Origin: a virus
Direction: 5' to 3' (one strand)
Virus record (IMG/VR): IMGVR_UViG_3300036884_000017
Span: 1 to 41,215 of that record
DNA length: 41,215 nt
Shown here piece after piece: positions 9,296 through 37,599 of the stretch. Within the stretch, counting starts at the first letter, position 1; the number at the start of each line of letters is the position of its first letter. Made by a program: the position numbers and the translations under genes. The notes under the pieces were generated by a model. That model had not been told where the DNA came from. It made no database searches and worked only from the letters and a program-made list of their open reading frames with translations.

Positions 9296-12200
9296 AGTGA
9301 TGTACTTCGGCGTTGCCGCTCATCAGCCCGCGCAGCCATTCGCCGACAGTGTGCGGCGACTGCTCGCCGGTATTAACGTCATAGATAAATTGCGTCGACG
9401 CACCGAACTGCCCCAAGCCAGGAAGTAGCAAGCCCGCCGCGTTGCCGACTGCTTTGACCGGCGCCTTGACAGGCTCGCCCGCAGCGCCTTTGACGACAGC
9501 CTTGCCCGCTTTGAACGTGTCGGTAAGGGCGCGTATCCACGGCGGCATGCCGGCGCTCTCGCGGCCTTCCACGAGCGCGGAGAAAGCCTCGCGCACCATC
9601 GGCACCGTGCCAGCCATTTCGCCTGCGATATTCTTGCCCGCCCACACCCACCAAGGCTGCTCGTCCACCTTGGGGCCGAAGGTGATGTAGCCCGCCATCA
9701 GTGCCGGAACGACTTGCGCGAACAGATACCGCGCCAGCAGTTCGGGCTTGCCGAAGCCGTTGGCGTGCAGCAGCTTGTCAAGGGCGTCAACTTGCTGGCC
9801 GTATGCGTTGTTCATAAAGCCGTGCAGTATCGTGAGCTGCTTAAGCACCTCGCTGCGGTTGTTGATAAGGTTGGAGCGTCCCGCCTCTATGTTAGTACCG
9901 TGGGCTTCGCGCACCACGCTATCCGCCCACTTCGCGGCGTCGGCGGCGTTCATGGGTTTGCCAGTGCCGCCAAGCCGAACGGGTACGCCTTCCGTGGTCG
10001 CCCAATCGTAGGCGGCGTGAAAGGTCGGCACGGCGGTAAAGAAGTCCATGTACGCGACGCCAGCATGCCCAAAGCGCTCGGCTTTCGCGTGAATGCTCTC
10101 GGGCTCCATCAGGCTCGCTACCTTCTCGGATAGGTCGCGGTCTTGCTGTTGCTGCCGTGCACGAATCTCGGGACTCTTGGCGAGCGCTTCGATTACTTGT
10201 GCGCTGTGGTTGGTTGCCATATCCTTGACGCGCGCCGCGAAATACTTTTCGCCGCCGCCCGAGAGGTAGCCCAGGCTCTTAGCGCCAGCACTGCCGCCGT
10301 GATTGAACATGGTGCTGATGCGGAAGGCAATGCCGTTGGCCACTACAGCGCGGCGGGTAGAGGCCAGGATCGCCGTTAGCTTGCTGCTGCGCTCGTCGCC
10401 GACTTCGCCATTTACGATGCGGCCCAGCCAGTCGCCCAGGGCTTTGTACTCCTCGTGGCCGTAAGTGCGCTCGAACTGTTTGCGAAAGTCGGAATGCACG
10501 TAGAGCTTGTGAGAATCAATGATCGCCTCGCGGTAAGCCAGATCGCGCAGGGTGTCGCTGATGGCCTTCTCGGTGGCGTGCCAATCGAGGTCAACAAAGT
10601 CGTGGTATCCCGTCGCGCGGGCATTCAAGCTGCCATTGGTCGTCGTATCGGCGCGGTAGTAATTCCGATTGAATAATCCTTCGGCGGGGTTGACAAGTTC
10701 CGCGTCGGCCTTGCGGCGCCCAAGCTTTGAGCGAATCGGATCGTACTTAACGGGCGCGTACCATCCCGGCATTTCGCCGAACTTGGTTTGGAAGGCGCGG
10801 GGTTCTATCTTCTCGGGCGAGGCGTTGCCCAGCCGTTTATTCATGGCAACCATTTCAGGCCAATGTGCGCCCGCCGCTTCGCCAAGTATTCGGGTTGCTT
10901 GCCAATCCTGCTCGCGCATGTTGTCGTGCAATGCCTTCCAAACCTCTACCGGGTTCCAGCGCATGCCATTCACAAGCTTGTCGAAGTTGGATTCGTTGCC
11001 GACGTGCAAGGCGATGCCGATTAGATCGCCGCGAGTAAGGCGGCGCTTTTGCGGAACGTCAAGCGAGTTATCCAGCAAGTTGTGATTCTCGACTATCTCA
11101 TGCAACGACTTCTGCCAATCGGTGCCTAGCTTCTCGGCTTCGGCGCGGAAGTGTTTGGATACCTCGCGGCTCATATCAAGGAAGTGGTAATTGGCGGCGA
11201 AGACAGGCTCAAACAGAGCACGGTGAAAAGGCCCAAGCACTTCGTGCATGTCGTAGCGGTTTGCCTTCTGGCTCTGCGGCAACATCTCGCCGAAGGCCGT
11301 AGCGCGCAAGCCCGAGGCAAGACGATCCAGGGCGACGCGGTAGAGCGGATCGACGCCACGGCGCGGGCGCTCGGCGAGTTGCGCGTCGGTGAACTTCTCG
11401 CCGCGCTCTTGCATCTTGACTATCATCTCGTCGGCCATCGCCTTGACGGCGACGCGCTGCCCGTCAATGGTCATCATCTTGCGCTCTTTGCCGAGGTGTT
11501 CCAGCGTGCGCAGCGTATCCATGAAGCCGCGCGCTTGCTCTACCGTCATCTCCTTAAACGGCATACGCACGGCGGCGTTAAGCATGTCGGGCGTGATGTT
11601 CGGCGAGTAGCCTAGCGCGGTTTGCGATTCGGCCCATTGCTGCAAGTTCTGCACCTCGCGCGTTTCGCCTGTCGGCGGATTCACGCGGAACTCGAAGCGG
11701 TCAAGCAAGTCGGCGATTTGCTCGCGGATATCAGGATCAATCTTTTTGAGTACCGATTCTTTGCTAAACCGTTTGACATACTGCGCGATGCGCCGCGCGC
11801 CGTCTTGCGCTTCGCGTGCGGCTTTCGCTAGTTGGTTGTTGAGCAATGCCGCTCGCTGGGCCTGTACCGCGCCTTCGGTATCCTTGGGCGCGAGCTTGAC
11901 GATAGCCTTATTGGCTTTGGCTTCCGCCGCTTCGTACTGCTTCGGATTAACGTCTTTGAGTTGCTTCGCGGCGATGCTCGCGTCAGCGGCTTCCTTGGCG
12001 CCCTTCTGCAACTGGCGCGCGGGTATCGGCGACTTCGAGAGAATCTTTAAGCCCGTTGCCATGAACTTAGCGCGAGCCTCGTTGTGTATCGCGGCTTCGG
12101 CAGCGCGTTCGATAGCGTCAGGGCTGGATAGCTCGCCGTGCTCCTCAAGCATGCGCTTATCGGTGAGGCCCGCGATTTTGCTTTCCTTGCTCTCGCCTGC

Positions 12201-31523: not shown

Positions 31524-33587
31524 CTAGTAACTTTTTGCAAGTACGTATCCCCCATCGTCCTCAAGCAAAATGCCTTTTTCGATCAATTTGTCCACGCATT
31601 TTGCTGCAAACTCTAGGCGACGATCCCGTTTGCCGTCTTGAATTAGCTCCGCCGCCAGGAAGTCAATTATCTCTGTGCGCGTCAGGGGCGCCCCATCTAA
31701 GCGCTGATTCTCTTTGACGACACGAACGCAGGTCTTTTCGTTAGGGCCTAGCTTGACCGCCTTGCGCTTCACGGGCGCCACGTCAGACGGCAGCACCACG
31801 CAGCTAGTTACCTCGTCATCGTCTTCGTCAAAGCCCAGCACGATAGGCGCGAGCGTGAAGCAATACTCGATGCCGTCTTCGCCATCCTTTTGCTTGGTCA
31901 GCTTGAGGCTGCGCGCGTCGTTGTCGCGGATAACCTCTATCTCTGCGTCAGCAGCAGCACGCAAGCCTGACCATCCCCGTGCGCCCTTGGTGCTGTCTTT
32001 GCCTGAGTGGTGAATCAGGATAACCGTCGCCTTTGTGGCGCGGTGGATGCCCTTGCAGTGCCCCAGCGCCTTGCCTACGTCCTCGCCGCTATTCTCGTTG
32101 CCGCCCGCCGTGGTCTGGGCGAACGTGTCAATGATAATCACGTCGGCGCCTCCACTTGCGACGATGGCCTTGGCAACGTCCAGCGCGTCGGCCTTTTGCA
32201 AGAGGTTAGGCGCGGCGGGGATAATGCCGATGTCGAGGGTGTCGAGTTGGATGTCGTGGTGCTGGGCATACGCTTGTAGCCGCTTGCGAAAGCCGCCAGC
32301 CCCTTCGGCAGCGATATAAGCGACTCGCCCCTGCTGCACGCGATGGCCGCGCCACTCGATACCCCGCGCGATGCTCGCGGCCATATCCAGGGCGGTGAAG
32401 CTCTTGCCGCTGCCCGATTCGCCAAAGACGACAATCAACTCGCCGGCAGGCAGGACGTGCTTGATATGCCAGCGCTGGGTTGCCGCGATAGCGAATTCGT
32501 GAGCGGGGATAACGGCAAATCGTTGAACAGGGGATTGCTTTTCATCAGCACCGACATTATCCAGGCGGGCGACATCCGAATCGCTCTCCTCCGTAAAATC
32601 TCCGCCTTCGCTCTCGTCGCAAGTCGTACTTGTTTCCGCATGCGCAATAGCATCGAAATCTGCGAGCGTTTCGGTATCAACGTAGCCAATCGCGTCCTTG
32701 AAGTCTACGTCGGTGCGCGATTCGCAATGTGCGTGTAAGCAGTGGAAATGCCCATTGATGTAACCCCCTGTGTGTGCCGGCCAATAGGTTGTAGAAGATT
32801 CGCCTGAGTCGCCTGTATGCTCGGCTTCAAACGGGCAAGTGATGTGCAAGCGGCCATCGCGTTCGGTACGCTTGAGAAAGCCCTTGTCTGCCAAGTGCTG
32901 CGCGACGGGATCGGAGAGGATCGCGCCGGCTAGTCGCTCGTGCTTAGTAGAAGCTTCGCTCTTGGCGTCAGGCTCTATGCCAAGAGCATCTTGCAACTCT
33001 TGCCAGATCGCCTCAAGCGATTCGCGGGTGAAGGTTGGCACGTCATCAGGCAATCCGCCTTCCCACTCGTAGCGTGCGCCGCTTGGATGCGTGCCGCAGG
33101 CAATGAACTGCTGGCCTGTGGCAAGTAGCTCTACCACGCCGTGGGCGGTCTTGATGCGGCGCTTGTGCAGGTCGCCGTCGAAGTCAAAGAGCAAGAGGAA
33201 CTTTGACGAGTTTGACCTTACTCGCTTTGGCAGTATGGCTTTAGCATTAAAAAAAGAGAGGACGGCTTGCGCTTCGTCGGCGTCTTCGATATCCACGTCG
33301 AAAGCGCGCAGGCGTCGCGTCTGTAGACAGATGCCGTAGTCGCGTTCCTTGGCCCATTGCTTAACATCGGCGGGCGCCGCGGCGTACTGCGTCCAGGCGG
33401 TGAAGCCGGATACCTGCCGCTGCAAGTTGTATTTGCTCGGCGTCTTGCCAAGCTGGCCCATCTTCGAGGCGTCGCTGATAGTGGCTTGCGCGTTGCTCAC
33501 TACCGGCAGCAAGTCGCGCGTCGCGTTGAGAATCAGCGCGAAATGTTGCCAGTCATCCGGCGAGGCACCGGGATATTCTTTTGTCAT
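31524..33587 (-). CDS. Primase-polymerase fused to AAA/RepA-like helicase
   Basis: A 687-aa replication protein. Residues 1-200 look like a prim-pol domain (catalytic acidic pair in DVDIED about 96-101, then ATGQQFIACGTHPSG). Residues 230-290 hold a His/Cys-rich segment (HITCPFEAEHTG ... HCLHAHCESR), probably a zinc ribbon. The C-terminal half is an AAA_25/RepA-type ATPase: Walker A GESGSGKS (about 388-395), Walker B DVIIIDTFAQT (about 479), and VILIHHSGKD. It should prime and unwind phage DNA. The start has AGGGAGGTAGGACAG. It lies on the opposite strand from the DNA polymerase cluster. Confidence 0.88.
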   Translation of the reverse strand: MTKEYPGASPDDWQHFALILNATRDLLPVVSNAQATISDASKMGQLGKTPSKYNLQRQVSGFTAWTQYAAAPADVKQWAKERDYGICLQTRRLRAFDVDIEDADEAQAVLSFFNAKAILPKRVRSNSSKFLLLFDFDGDLHKRRIKTAHGVVELLATGQQFIACGTHPSGARYEWEGGLPDDVPTFTRESLEAIWQELQDALGIEPDAKSEASTKHERLAGAILSDPVAQHLADKGFLKRTERDGRLHITCPFEAEHTGDSGESSTTYWPAHTGGYINGHFHCLHAHCESRTDVDFKDAIGYVDTETLADFDAIAHAETSTTCDESEGGDFTEESDSDVARLDNVGADEKQSPVQRFAVIPAHEFAIAATQRWHIKHVLPAGELIVVFGESGSGKSFTALDMAASIARGIEWRGHRVQQGRVAYIAAEGAGGFRKRLQAYAQHHDIQLDTLDIGIIPAAPNLLQKADALDVAKAIVASGGADVIIIDTFAQTTAGGNENSGEDVGKALGHCKGIHRATKATVILIHHSGKDSTKGARGWSGLRAAADAEIEVIRDNDARSLKLTKQKDGEDGIEYCFTLAPIVLGFDEDDDEVTSCVVLPSDVAPVKRKAVKLGPNEKTCVRVVKENQRLDGAPLTRTEIIDFLAAELIQDGKRDRRLEFAAKCVDKLIEKGILLEDDGGYVLAKSY

Positions 33588-34064: not shown

Positions 34065-34394
34065 TCACTTGACGCACTCGCGCCCGCCGTTGTTCGCGGC
34101 AGGGTGGTCGATCAACCTGCCGAGCGCAGCACCTAGGGTCGAGAGCGCCGCAACCTGCTCGCCGTCGACAGCATTGGCCTCCTTGATGGCGCGGTCGGTC
34201 AGTTGGTTAGCGAGCGCACAGGCCGTGTAGGGGTCGAGCCGCAGCGTAACCTCCGACACCTGAATCTCACTCCCCTTCGTGTCCTCAATGGCACCGTTCA
34301 GGTTTCCCCGCCACCCACTCTTGATCGGTGGCCGCGCTTTCTTCGTTTCGTCGTTCGTTTCGTCGTTCGTTTCGTCGTTCGTTTCGTCGTTCAT
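34065..34394 (-). CDS. Hypothetical protein with DETN repeat, first ORF after attC-like site 1
   Basis: A 109-aa protein. Residues 3-18 are four copies of a DETN/DETK tetrapeptide from a 12-bp tandem repeat. The C-terminal 60 residues (IQVSEVTLRLDPYTACALANQLTDRAIKEANAV ... LGAALGRLID) look like a compact folded domain. Function unknown. The start has GGAAAGGACAAAGAC upstream, directly after an attC-like site, as expected for a gene cassette. No clear attC-like site follows it. The 209 bp from here to the regulator start hold no ORF I can support. Confidence 0.6.
   Translation of the reverse strand: MNDETNDETNDETNDETKKARPPIKSGWRGNLNGAIEDTKGSEIQVSEVTLRLDPYTACALANQLTDRAIKEANAVDGEQVAALSTLGAALGRLIDHPAANNGGRECVK
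34345..34392. repeat. 12-bp tandem repeat, four copies
   Basis: The unit GTTTCGTCGTTC is repeated four times without change. It encodes DETN on the minus strand at the extreme N-terminus of the 109-aa protein. Confidence 0.95.
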
Positions 34395-34419: not shown

Positions 34420-34487
34420 GCCCAACACTTCAATCGAGGCGACCTGCCGCAAGAGGCGCGGCAGGCGCCTCATTTCGAACGTTAGCA
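34420..34487 (-). other. attC-like integron recombination site 1
   Basis: A 68-bp imperfect palindrome. Plus-strand layout: GCCCAAC (34420-34426), 15 nt, a 24-nt hairpin (CCTGCCGC/GCGGCAGG), 15 nt, GTTAGCA (34481-34487). The 15-nt arms pair through GAGGCG/CGCCTC and TTC..AA/TT..GAA with a small mismatch and one extra unpaired base. On the minus strand the end box is GTTGGGC, a perfect GTTRRRY. The 3' end of the 155-aa ORF runs into it, as in integron cassettes. Confidence 0.7.
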
Positions 34488-34897
34488 GGCATCACCAGTA
34501 CGCCGCGCATCCACGGTATTACCTCTACCGTCATGCCAAGAATTTCACGCCCATACCCGTACTCGGCGCGAAAGGAAAATGCCTGCGACGCCACAACTTC
34601 GCGCATCAACTCGGCATAGTCCTCCGCGCCGATCAGCAGCCGCGACGGCCGCATGTTGAAATACCTATCAATCCCCTCACGCTGCTTAAACAGCCGATCC
34701 ATGAAGGTTCGCCCATCAATCGCGTGGCGCTCTATCGTCACCGTCTCGCCGATGTAGAAGGCCCGCAGGCGGCGCAATACCCAAAAGCACGCCTTTTGCA
34801 GCCAGGGCGCCGGCCTATCCGTGCGAAGCTGGAACGCCTCTTTATTGTCAAAGCGCGTCAGTCGCTCGGTCATCGTCACAAACTCAACTATCTGCAT
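34430..34897 (-). CDS. Hypothetical cassette-type protein
   Basis: A 155-aa protein of unknown function. The fold seems mixed alpha/beta, with segments such as FYIGETVTIERHAIDGRTFMDRLF and MTVEVIPWMRGVLVMP. It starts 22 bp after the end box of attC-like site 2 with GAGGGGGCGAA as ribosome site. Its last 15 or so codons lie inside attC-like site 1. This layout (short leader, ORF, attC) is that of an integron gene cassette. Not recognised as a known resistance or toxin gene. Confidence 0.65.
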   Translation of the reverse strand: MQIVEFVTMTERLTRFDNKEAFQLRTDRPAPWLQKACFWVLRRLRAFYIGETVTIERHAIDGRTFMDRLFKQREGIDRYFNMRPSRLLIGAEDYAELMREVVASQAFSFRAEYGYGREILGMTVEVIPWMRGVLVMPANVRNEAPAAPLAAGRLD

Positions 34898-34909
34898 TTC
34901 GCCCCCTCG

Positions 34910-35344
34910 TTATATGCCTGCTAACTTTTCATTCCACCGCTGCGCGACCGGACGGCTTCGCCGCTGGTTAAAAACGGCGTTAGGGGCCTTCTGGTGTTCC
35001 CATGCGTACTCGGCCAACAGTTCCCGCTGGTCTTCCCACGGCTGCGTGCAGTAGCCGAGGTCGTCGAGCGAAAAGGCAATGTCCGCGCACCGTTCACACA
35101 GGTAATGCGGCGCCCTCGGAACCTCGCCGTCTTCGCCGTAGATGCGAACCTCGACATCAGTCTCCGGCACCTTGAACCGGGGAACCTCGGCGCACGTCGC
35201 GCCGACATCGATCTTCTCGCCGCAGCTACAGCACTTCCGGGGGCGCTTTGTCTCCAGCGTGGTGTAGTCCTTCGCGTCATACCAGATCGTCATTCCAGGT
35301 TCCCAATCAGGTTCCCAATCGCCGCAACTACAGGTCAGTCCCAT
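34910..35344 (-). CDS. Cysteine-rich zinc-binding cassette-type protein
   Basis: A 144-aa protein with several Cys pairs: CSC at 5-7, CCSC about 38-41, and CERC about 78-81, followed by the conserved-looking YCTQPWEDQRELLAEYAWEH. It probably binds zinc. Its function is unknown. The start follows GGAAAGGGCTGAC just downstream of the third attC-like box. The ORF end (RRSRPVAQRWNEKLAGI) is coded within attC-like site 2, as for many integron cassettes. Confidence 0.7.
   Translation of the reverse strand: MGLTCSCGDWEPDWEPGMTIWYDAKDYTTLETKRPRKCCSCGEKIDVGATCAEVPRFKVPETDVEVRIYGEDGEVPRAPHYLCERCADIAFSLDDLGYCTQPWEDQRELLAEYAWEHQKAPNAVFNQRRSRPVAQRWNEKLAGI
34919..34985 (-). other. attC-like integron recombination site 2
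   Basis: A 67-bp site with the same plan as site 1. It has TGCTAAC (34919-34925), 15 nt, 23 nt with a GGC-TTCG-GCC-type hairpin, 15 nt (CTGGTTAAAAACGGC), and GTTAGGG (34979-34985). Arm pairing is weaker than in site 1, but box order and spacing are identical. Confidence 0.6.
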
Positions 35345-35345
35345 G

Positions 35346-36155
35346 TCAGCCCTTTCCGGGGCGCACGGCCCCTAACACCACGGTCGAGGAGGACGCTTCG
35401 CCGGCAAGCCGGCTCGCGCCCCTCACTTCGCCGGCAAGCCGGCTCGCGCCCCTCACCTCGCCTTTATACGTCTCGGCAATCGCTGTCAGCGCCGCCCGTA
35501 GTTGCCACCCTAAAAACTCGGTATAGGCCGGAGGTATTGCCTCGCTCAGTTCTCCGAGCGTCATCCAGTCAATCCCGAGTGCCTTTGAAGCGGCGGCTTT
35601 GTGCCCGCCGTCCCATACATCCTTTGTCCCGCGCCCGCCGTGCTTTGAGCTTCGGTTTCTTGCGTGCCCGCCATACACCCCGATTACAGGGCGTTCCGTG
35701 TGCCTGCATTGCGGCGGCGCAACCTGGAAACTCGTTTCAAAAAGCCTGTGCCTTTGCAGGTCGTGACCTTGCGCGCCAAGGTCAAACATCGTGCCGCACA
35801 ACAGCACGGGGCTTTGCATCTCGCCCGCTGCGGCTTCCACGTTCTCAATCACCCACGGCAGCCCAGTCGCTTGCAGCAATTCCCGCGTTTGCCCAATAAG
35901 GCGCGGCGCACCTTTCGCGCTCGGTGCGTGCCGCATGGTTGTGTAGCCCTGGCACGGTGGCGAGGCGTGCACCGCGTCAAAGTTCTCCGCTATCCATGCC
36001 GGGTCAAGCGTCAGAGCGTCAGCTACAATCACCGCATGGGGGTTGTTCTGGTGGCGCACAACATCAACGCCGGTAATCTCAAACCCAGCGCGTGCGTAGC
36101 CCATCCCGGCGCCGCCAGCGCAGCAAAACAAATCGAGCAGTCTCGGTTTCTTCAT
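35346..36155 (-). CDS. DNA (cytosine-5) methyltransferase, orphan
   Basis: A 269-aa C5 methyltransferase that transfers methyl groups to cytosine, probably to shield phage DNA from restriction. Motif I is LLDLFCCAGGAG (6-17), the catalytic motif IV is ASPPCQG with Cys68, motif VI is ENV (104-106) and motif VIII is QRHRLFE (134-140). No restriction enzyme gene is near. I chose the ATG at 36155, which has GAGGAGCAAGAAG before it. An ATG at 36170 lacks a ribosome site. The last 35 residues come from a 30-bp duplication and attC-like DNA. The target site cannot be read from sequence. Confidence 0.9.
   Translation of the reverse strand: MKKPRLLDLFCCAGGAGMGYARAGFEITGVDVVRHQNNPHAVIVADALTLDPAWIAENFDAVHASPPCQGYTTMRHAPSAKGAPRLIGQTRELLQATGLPWVIENVEAAAGEMQSPVLLCGTMFDLGAQGHDLQRHRLFETSFQVAPPQCRHTERPVIGVYGGHARNRSSKHGGRGTKDVWDGGHKAAASKALGIDWMTLGELSEAIPPAYTEFLGWQLRAALTAIAETYKGEVRGASRLAGEVRGASRLAGEASSSTVVLGAVRPGKG
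35370..35391 (-). other. attC-like site 3, half next to the methyltransferase 3' end
   Basis: CCCTAAC (35370-35376) plus 15 nt (ACCACGGTCGAGGAG). It matches the left part of sites 1 and 2 in order and spacing, including the TCGAGG core of site 1. No GTTRRRY-type box follows within normal attC length. The missing half seems to lie at 36163-36184. Confidence 0.55.
35396..35455. repeat. 30-bp tandem duplication in the methyltransferase C-terminus
   Basis: Two identical 30-bp copies (35396-35425 and 35426-35455), each with the palindrome GCCGGCAAGCCGGC. It keeps frame and adds one copy of GASRLAGEVR to the protein tail. Confidence 0.95.
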
Positions 36156-36162
36156 CTTCTTG

Positions 36163-36184
36163 CTCCTCATGTCACACGTTAGCC
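36163..36184 (-). other. attC-like site 3, half next to the methyltransferase 5' end
   Basis: Fifteen bases (CTCCTCATGTCACAC, 36163-36177) followed by GTTAGCC (36178-36184). The opening CTCCTC is complementary to the GAGGAG end of the half-site at 35386-35391. The plan resembles the right side of site 1 (CGCCTCATTTCGAAC then GTTAGCA). Confidence 0.5.
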
Positions 36185-36210
36185 CACTGCATCATCACGG
36201 TCATGTGCAG

Positions 36211-36239
36211 ATACTAGCAATTGCTAATTCCTAAAGCAA
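36211..36239 (-). promoter_or_regulatory. Leftward promoter of the methyltransferase block, with two operators
   Basis: On the minus strand, TTGCTT (36239-36234) and TAGTAT (36216-36211) are 17 bp apart. The palindrome TAGCAATTGCTA (36215-36226) overlaps the -10, and a second copy (36235-36246) overlaps the -35. The arrangement suggests repressor control. Confidence 0.65.
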
Positions 36240-36284
36240 TTGCTAATTCCTGATAGGTCAGTAGCGAACCATAAGAAAGTCTGA

Positions 36285-36314
36285 TTGTTATTCGTCATTA
36301 GCAATAGCTACAAT
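36285..36314 (+). promoter_or_regulatory. Rightward early promoter with operator in the spacer
   Basis: TTGTTA (36285-36290) and TACAAT (36309-36314) are 18 bp apart on the plus strand. TTAGCAATAGCTA (36298-36310), a variant of the palindrome, lies in the spacer up to the -10. It would drive the small ORFs from 36350 onward. Confidence 0.65.
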
Positions 36315-36836: not shown

Positions 36837-36867
36837 ACCATCAGAAAATATTACCATCTAGCTAGCA

Positions 36868-36884
36868 TTAGCAACTGCTAGTAT
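36868..36884 (+). promoter_or_regulatory. Operator-like palindrome with -10 upstream of the Ala-rich gene
   Basis: TTAGCAACTGCTAG (36868-36881) overlaps TAGTAT (36879-36884), repeating the design of the other operator sites. No good -35 is visible, so a weak or activated promoter is possible. The next gene starts at 36910. Confidence 0.5.
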
Positions 36885-36909
36885 CCACAACCTCACAAGG
36901 GGGTAGCAA

Positions 36910-37599
<690 letters not shown>

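Follow-up and report, generated by a model that had tools for sequence, protein, structure and literature searches.

The window analysed here, a stretch of 41,215 nucleotides that spans positions 1 to 41,215 of the IMG/VR virus record IMGVR_UViG_3300036884_000017, carries a short array of small genes that are separated by attC sites of the integron type and flanked by a primase/helicase gene (Table 1). All genes of the array are encoded on the minus strand. Genes 0, A, and B start 21-25 nt past a GTT box and have a ribosome site, as the original prediction had described for the open reading frames of this region, and gene A also ends as predicted inside site 1, whereas the stop codon of gene B lies 7 nt past attC 2 and not within it. 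Both genes continue across the predicted cut, in frame in case of gene A (..MPAN/V..; a slash within a sequence marks the cut) and as ..APN/A.. in case of gene B. The products of two phage relatives of gene A (58% and 53%) terminate soon past the cut residue, ending in VMPNENEY-stop and VMPNNS-stop. Homologues of gene B are found in attC-bounded cassettes of the phages L006/L007, L008, L010, and L202, though it shares only 41-47% identity with cassette genes of integrase-bearing phages. Searches of isolated phages with genes A and B (megablast, blastn, and tblastn) returned no relatives, while viral contigs do match. Gene 0 falls into no PHROG family, and a 12-nt tandem repeat at 34350-34394 (CGTTTCGTCGTT) encodes the NDET repeats at its N-terminus.

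Table 1. Features of the array and its flank, with positions in the window.
Feature	Position	Strand	Remarks
Primase/helicase	31524-33587	-	Flanks the array; not a cassette
Gene 0	34065-34394	-	109 aa; function not assigned; relatives in 4 viral contigs (52-66%)
attC site 1 (intact)	34420-34487	+	65.4 bits (E 1.6e-13); fold z -4.8
Site 1 box GCCCAAC	34420-34426	+	
Site 1 box GTTAGCA	34481-34487	+	Predicted cut G/TT at 34481/34482
Cassette gene A	34430-34897	-	155 aa; function not assigned
attC site 2 (hairpin apparently decayed)	34919-34985	+	18.0 bits (E 0.026)
Cassette gene B	34910-35344	-	144 aa; cysteine-rich (zinc-ribbon-like)
attC site 3 (apparently degenerate)	35370-35439	+	19.1 bits (E 0.014)
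DNA methyltransferase	35346-36155	-	269 aa from likely start; PHROG 363 (E 1e-32)
Lone GTTAGCC box	36178-36184	+	Just 5' of the methyltransferase gene; may mark the outer end of the array

The last ~40 residues of the methyltransferase are encoded by attC 3 and its flank and are absent from relatives of this protein, of which the one in contig L265 (87%) aligns over residues 1-224 only. The methyltransferase is a possible rather than a clear cassette, with the alignment to L265 covering the gene only and with no GTT box at site 3. Downstream of its relative in L265, we noted a GCCTAAC and a GTTAGGC box 4 nt apart (L265:5478-5500, GCCTAACTAGAGTTAGGC) that look like an attC site without a hairpin. 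Between the minus-strand array and plus-strand genes of the window lie AT-rich short repeats (CAATTGCTAATTCCTAAAGCAATTGCTAATTCCTG and similar, at 36210-36300 and 36850-36890) that may form a divergent operator or promoter region, and one plus-strand stretch (36910-37599) matches Imm5-like immunity proteins (PF21805, 40 bits at a cut-off of 25), which is unusual in a phage. Neither an integron integrase nor any other tyrosine recombinase was found anywhere in the record (TIGR02249 and PF00589 absent), in agreement with the original prediction, and an exact 20-mer search of the window found no attI-like motif. The locus is therefore not a complete integron with intI and attI, but it has the composition of a CALIN, i.e., at least two attC sites that bound small genes with no intI nearby.

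Three attC sites within 1.1 kb

The window was searched with R1, a covariance model that we made from 52 aligned bacterial attC sites and that is not the published attC model. Its training set consists of attC-plan hairpins upstream of intI in bacterial genomes that encode relatives of a phage integron integrase, and these hairpins sit on the strand expected of bacterial integrons. Over 961 kb of phage contigs picked by their primase gene, R1 gave one single hit at E <= 0.5, and its specificity is therefore good; this hit is a 52.5-bit attC in contig L015 directly upstream of a primase gene of the window's type (54% identity), where it is accompanied by one cassette. A threshold of 20 bits was used by Qi et al. 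with their own model (PMC9892861).

The three top hits of R1 in the whole window, all on the plus strand and within 1.1 kb, are followed by a gap in score and then by chance-level hits near 11 bits. Two of them, sites 1 and 2, lie exactly where the original prediction had placed them and have the plan described there, with GCCCAAC + 15 + 24 + 15 + GTTAGCA (68 nt) at site 1 and TGCTAAC + 15 + 23 + 15 + GTTAGGG (67 nt) at site 2, where the predicted cut is at 34979/34980. In attC terms, each of the 15-nt blocks combines the spacer with the L arm. Site 3 had been overlooked. It has a CCCTAAC box and the arms GAGG(A)GG(A)CGC / GCGCCCCTC, yet no recognisable GTT box is present (R'' only), and a 30-nt tandem duplication (35396-35455) is found in its region. 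A fourth candidate site at 36118-36184 was rejected as not significant (10 bits, E 1.9).

The three sites differ in how much of the attC structure they retain. At site 1 the R'' box is perfect and the 5' arm on the plus strand carries two extrahelical bases, AT(C)GAGGCG(A)CC, and its folding beats 200 of 200 shuffled sequences. Site 2 keeps the AAC/GTT core of the boxes with one to two deviations, but folds no better than shuffled sequences (z -0.06). Folding of site 3 is only slightly above that of shuffles. An imperfect hairpin whose L'' side has extrahelical bases is clear at site 1 and poor at the other two. By box, hairpin, and covariance-model match, the sites of the window are attC sites, of which site 1 looks competent for recombination while sites 2 and 3 look decayed, and the array of the window is therefore probably only partly mobile at present.

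The boxes hold a further signal. Across cassette A, GTTAGCA of site 1 (34481) complements TGCTAAC of site 2 (34919) at 7/7 positions, and across cassette B, GTTAGGG of site 2 (34979) likewise complements CCCTAAC of site 3 (35370) at 7/7. Complementarity of the two boxes of one cassette at all four variable bases was seen in 79% of 103 viral cassettes and in 75% of 150 bacterial ones, compared to a background of 7-10% for random pairs (7% in the viral set) and of 8-15% when both boxes come from a single attC. For a descent of the weak sites 2 and 3 from attC sites, this complementarity is the strongest evidence.

It is very improbable that the hairpins are transcription terminators, RNA structures, or chance inverted repeats. 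While attC sites are thought to hold weak terminators (PMC9892861), no terminator-like site was reported at the three attC sites and no Rfam family or tRNA was matched in the window; furthermore, site 1 reaches its score with both extrahelical bases in place, the boxes are complementary across cassettes, and breakpoints in relatives fall precisely at the boxes (see below). A reading of the array as an inert relic, i.e., as an old integron arrival that now consists of fixed and slowly decaying phage genes, is a real if tentative possibility. It would fit the loss of most of the hairpin or of a box at sites 2 and 3, the methyltransferase gene that runs through site 3, and the missing integrase, whereas the score of site 1, which equals that of bacterial sites in live-looking arrays, and the still perfect complementarity of both box pairs speak against it.

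Array genes run against the polarity of attC

The original prediction had recognised in this locus the layout of integron gene cassettes, but it had missed that the attC sites lie on the plus strand and the genes on the minus strand, so that the genes oppose the attC polarity and the bacterial layout is not matched. Canonical cassettes on the minus strand would fit the box layout, as box complementarity is symmetric, and were rejected given how R1 scored either strand (for site 1, 65.4 bits on plus and 8.1 bits on minus with filters off). When direction was scored by the best ORF on each strand between adjacent attC sites, 83 out of 107 viral cassettes had their gene against attC, 13 with it, and 11 were unclear; the corresponding numbers for 162 bacterial cassettes were 17, 129, and 16. 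ORFs on the gene strand of the viral cassettes matched 56 PHROG and 12 Pfam families, compared to 4 and 1 for the longest ORFs on the opposite strand. The polarity of attC relative to intI is of the bacterial type, as 173 of the 174 R1 hits in viral sequences are found on the strand that does not encode intI or the query gene, and it is therefore the genes that are turned and not the sites. That the segments between the sites are gene cassettes whose genes are reversed relative to attC is thus supported at the level of sequence.

How the genes end also relates to the sites. Of the 88 viral genes that have a ribosome site, many terminate at position -7 (TGA before the box) or exactly within the box (TAA/C). 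Read-through of the cut was seen in 46, with the AAC in frame in 43 of them, and genes A and B of the window belong to this kind. The stop codon of such genes comes from the next attC or from sequence just past it. In several cases it overlaps with the next start codon, e.g., at 10128-10131 and 11780-11783 in L006 and at 782-785 in L008, and we infer from this arrangement that translation may be coupled through attC.

Relatives of the array in phages that encode an integron integrase

Relatives of gene B led to contigs L004-L012, several of which are rich in attC sites. A complete integron integrase (479 bits, curated cut-off 265) is encoded in three of the records, L005-L007. A search with the integrase of those records found relatives in 61 viral contigs; intI is present in L005-L007 and L184-L223. 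The viral integrases largely group together in unrooted trees that sampled their closest bacterial relatives only, with a group of 47 tips that includes 45 viral ones using FastTree (131 sequences, support 0.99) and a group of 36 tips that includes 34 viral ones using IQ-TREE (83 sequences, SH-aLRT 98), though some integrase-bearing viral contigs fall outside. The two bacterial tips of the viral group are the MAG contigs L101 and L103, which possibly are prophages or phages binned with their host and, if so, could reveal hosts of these phages.

The records examined for gene content are those of phages, with terminase, tape measure, tail fibre, and temperate integrase in the record of L007, terminase, portal, and major head protein in L202, terminase and tape measure in L199, and terminase together with tail or head genes in L190 and L196. 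The record of L007 also encodes a reverse transcriptase of phage type next to tail fibre genes (L249:2257-3255, ca. 22.3-23.3 kb of the record; phrog_1423, E 2e-110), suggesting that this phage may carry a diversity-generating retroelement besides the integron. Directly upstream of intI we found an attI-like motif, AAC/TTAAATTCRACGACACC and variants thereof, in 31 of 34 loci of the viral group compared to 3 of 36 bacterial loci when a loose pattern was used. The exact attI-like 20-mer occurs in 17 viral stretches. In viral arrays, mostly only ~80 nt separate the last box from the start of intI.

These relatives bear on the source of the array, which the original prediction had sought in ordinary bacterial cassettes captured from a host integron. 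The attC sites of the window indeed resemble integron sites of Betaproteobacteria and Gammaproteobacteria (e.g., L111) very closely in sequence and structure. Yet reversed genes are found in 83 of the 96 clear viral cassettes and in only 17 of 146 bacterial ones, and the integrase-bearing homes found for gene B are all phages, in a search that covered two MAGs on the bacterial side. A pool of cassettes that is borne by phages with their own integrase explains both polarity and the homes of gene B better, and we regard capture from a host integron as unlikely.

Cassette turnover and cargo

Comparisons between metagenome contigs uncovered gains and losses of whole cassettes in this phage family. 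L006 and L007 share 99% identity beyond the array and yet differ by whole cassettes, with an extra unit in L006 between GCGCCCTAAC/G and GGGGTCGAAC/G and another one in L007 between GTGCCCTCCAAC/G and GGCGCATAAC/G. Relative to L184, L185 has one extra cassette inside the array and one at attI, and several cassettes between an AAC/G box and attI distinguish L208 from L211. The breakpoints in all three pairs are at AAC/G or attI, and sequence shared at the joins amounts to only ~4-10 nt, so these are not assembly joins at repeats. Cassettes also appear in different genetic contexts: L006 and L010, two contigs that are largely unrelated elsewhere, share the cassette of gene B at 96.8% identity, and the shared stretch begins and ends at the boxes. 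Other versions are found in L008 and L202.

Gains and losses bounded by boxes, which had been proposed as a test of the original prediction, are therefore seen for the family, and neither a lack of model hits nor a set of merely fixed genes, either of which would have spoken against it, describes this family; the collections that we searched contained no near relative of the window that would show gain or loss of its own cassettes. Because the window has no integrase, attI, or close relative, we infer movement of its cassettes from the family. A blastn search of plasmids with site 1 gave short chance matches only.

Most cassette cargo has no assigned function, including genes 0, A, and B of the window. 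Among the Pfam and PHROG matches of 81 cassette proteins are Dam and C5 methyltransferases, Mom, and Lar restriction alleviation proteins as well as an exoribonuclease, PAPS reductase-like proteins, and DHH proteins. Lar in L195 and Mom in L207 score above the curated cut-off and lie inside cassettes, and Mom of L196 is found between the last attC and intI. One hairpin match in a cassette of L208, to Acb2/Tad1, does not reach the cut-off of this family and is not claimed here.

A probable phage-type integron with reversed cargo

Taking these observations together, the array of the window is probably a fragment of a phage-type integron that lacks the integrase and in which the genes oppose the polarity of attC. 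What the evidence supports best is integron chemistry of the ordinary kind, with the cargo reversed. Each unit would pair a single gene with an attC that lies 5' of it as read on the gene strand, and the integron integrase would fold the gene-sense strand, i.e., the bottom strand of attC, into a hairpin and recombine the cassette by this folded strand. The cut would fall at RYYYAA/C, which is G/TT on the other strand, and the cassette would then travel as a circle. In the relatives, the enzyme is encoded by the phage itself, attI is located between the last gene and intI, and the genes point to intI; the array would presumably be expressed from a phage promoter upstream of it and not from Pc at attI. 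An integrase provided in trans by a co-infecting phage or by the host may have brought in the cassettes of the window and could still mobilise them.

More broadly, there probably is a phage-specific class of integrons in which array and intI form one co-directional, operon-like unit, with the genes running toward attI and intI and against attC, with transcription from a phage promoter, and with entry of new cassettes at the promoter-distal end. By this means phages would acquire, drop, and exchange small genes, those for counter-defence among them, both inside a lineage and across unrelated ones, and the window would be an integrase-less carrier from the same pool. Methyltransferases, Mom, and Lar protect DNA from host restriction, and phages would thus have a dedicated means of reshuffling their counter-defence genes, much as bacterial integrons do with accessory genes. 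Cassette turnover in phages is resolved here to the nucleotide level. The accepted reason for the strand choice of the integrase is that cassettes become oriented for expression from Pc at attI (PMC11023631), and a viral group with the same attC grammar yet the opposite gene orientation would mean that this rule is not universal.

Comparison with known integrons

Clusters of attC sites in lytic phages have been known since 2023, when Qi et al. described integrons as well as groups of attC sites in phages, some of them lytic, and found that IntI1 recombined 5 of 6 phage attC sites tested (PMC9892861); the remark in the original prediction that no well-described lytic podovirus has such an array is therefore out of date. 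For the inverted architecture, we found no report in the open-access literature that we searched. The lytic phages TJE1, PH101, P12002L, and MW202573 of that study are CALIN carriers like the window, with attC sites and small genes but no integrase, and methyltransferases are among the cargo in both cases. MW202573 is also inverted like the window when analysed with R1 (L307, 2069-3738), with five attC sites on the minus strand and the surrounding CDS on the plus strand, on which the text of PMC9892861 does not remark as far as it shows. The R1 hits in TJE1 and M16-3 lie on the gene strand and are thus canonical, unlike those of the window. Furthermore, neither a phage integrase group nor cassette turnover is described in PMC9892861, in contrast to this work.

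The phage systems share with bacterial integrons an IntI of the TIGR02249 family, the structure of attC, the complementarity of boxes within a cassette, and insertion at attI. They differ in that bacterial cassette genes run with attC and away from intI with Pc at attI, while those of phages run against attC and toward intI. The integrons of Treponema (PMC3607928) resemble the phage arrays in the common direction of intI and cassette genes, but there it is intI that is turned and not the genes, with intI located upstream of the array and transcribed toward attI. In phage integrons, intI is instead downstream of attI and the array, and the relation of genes to attC is inverted.

A lagging-strand template favours folding and excision of attC (PMC11023631, PMC8946536), and placing the attC bottom strands on it by artificial inversion of the chromosomal integron of Vibrio cholerae resulted in more cassette excision (PMC11023631). 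In that case the whole array was turned and its genes still run with attC, whereas in the phage layout the bottom strand is the gene-sense strand, and the lagging-strand effect would be the same if the genes follow the replication fork. Should these phages replicate in the direction of their genes, placement on the lagging strand would make their arrays fast-moving.
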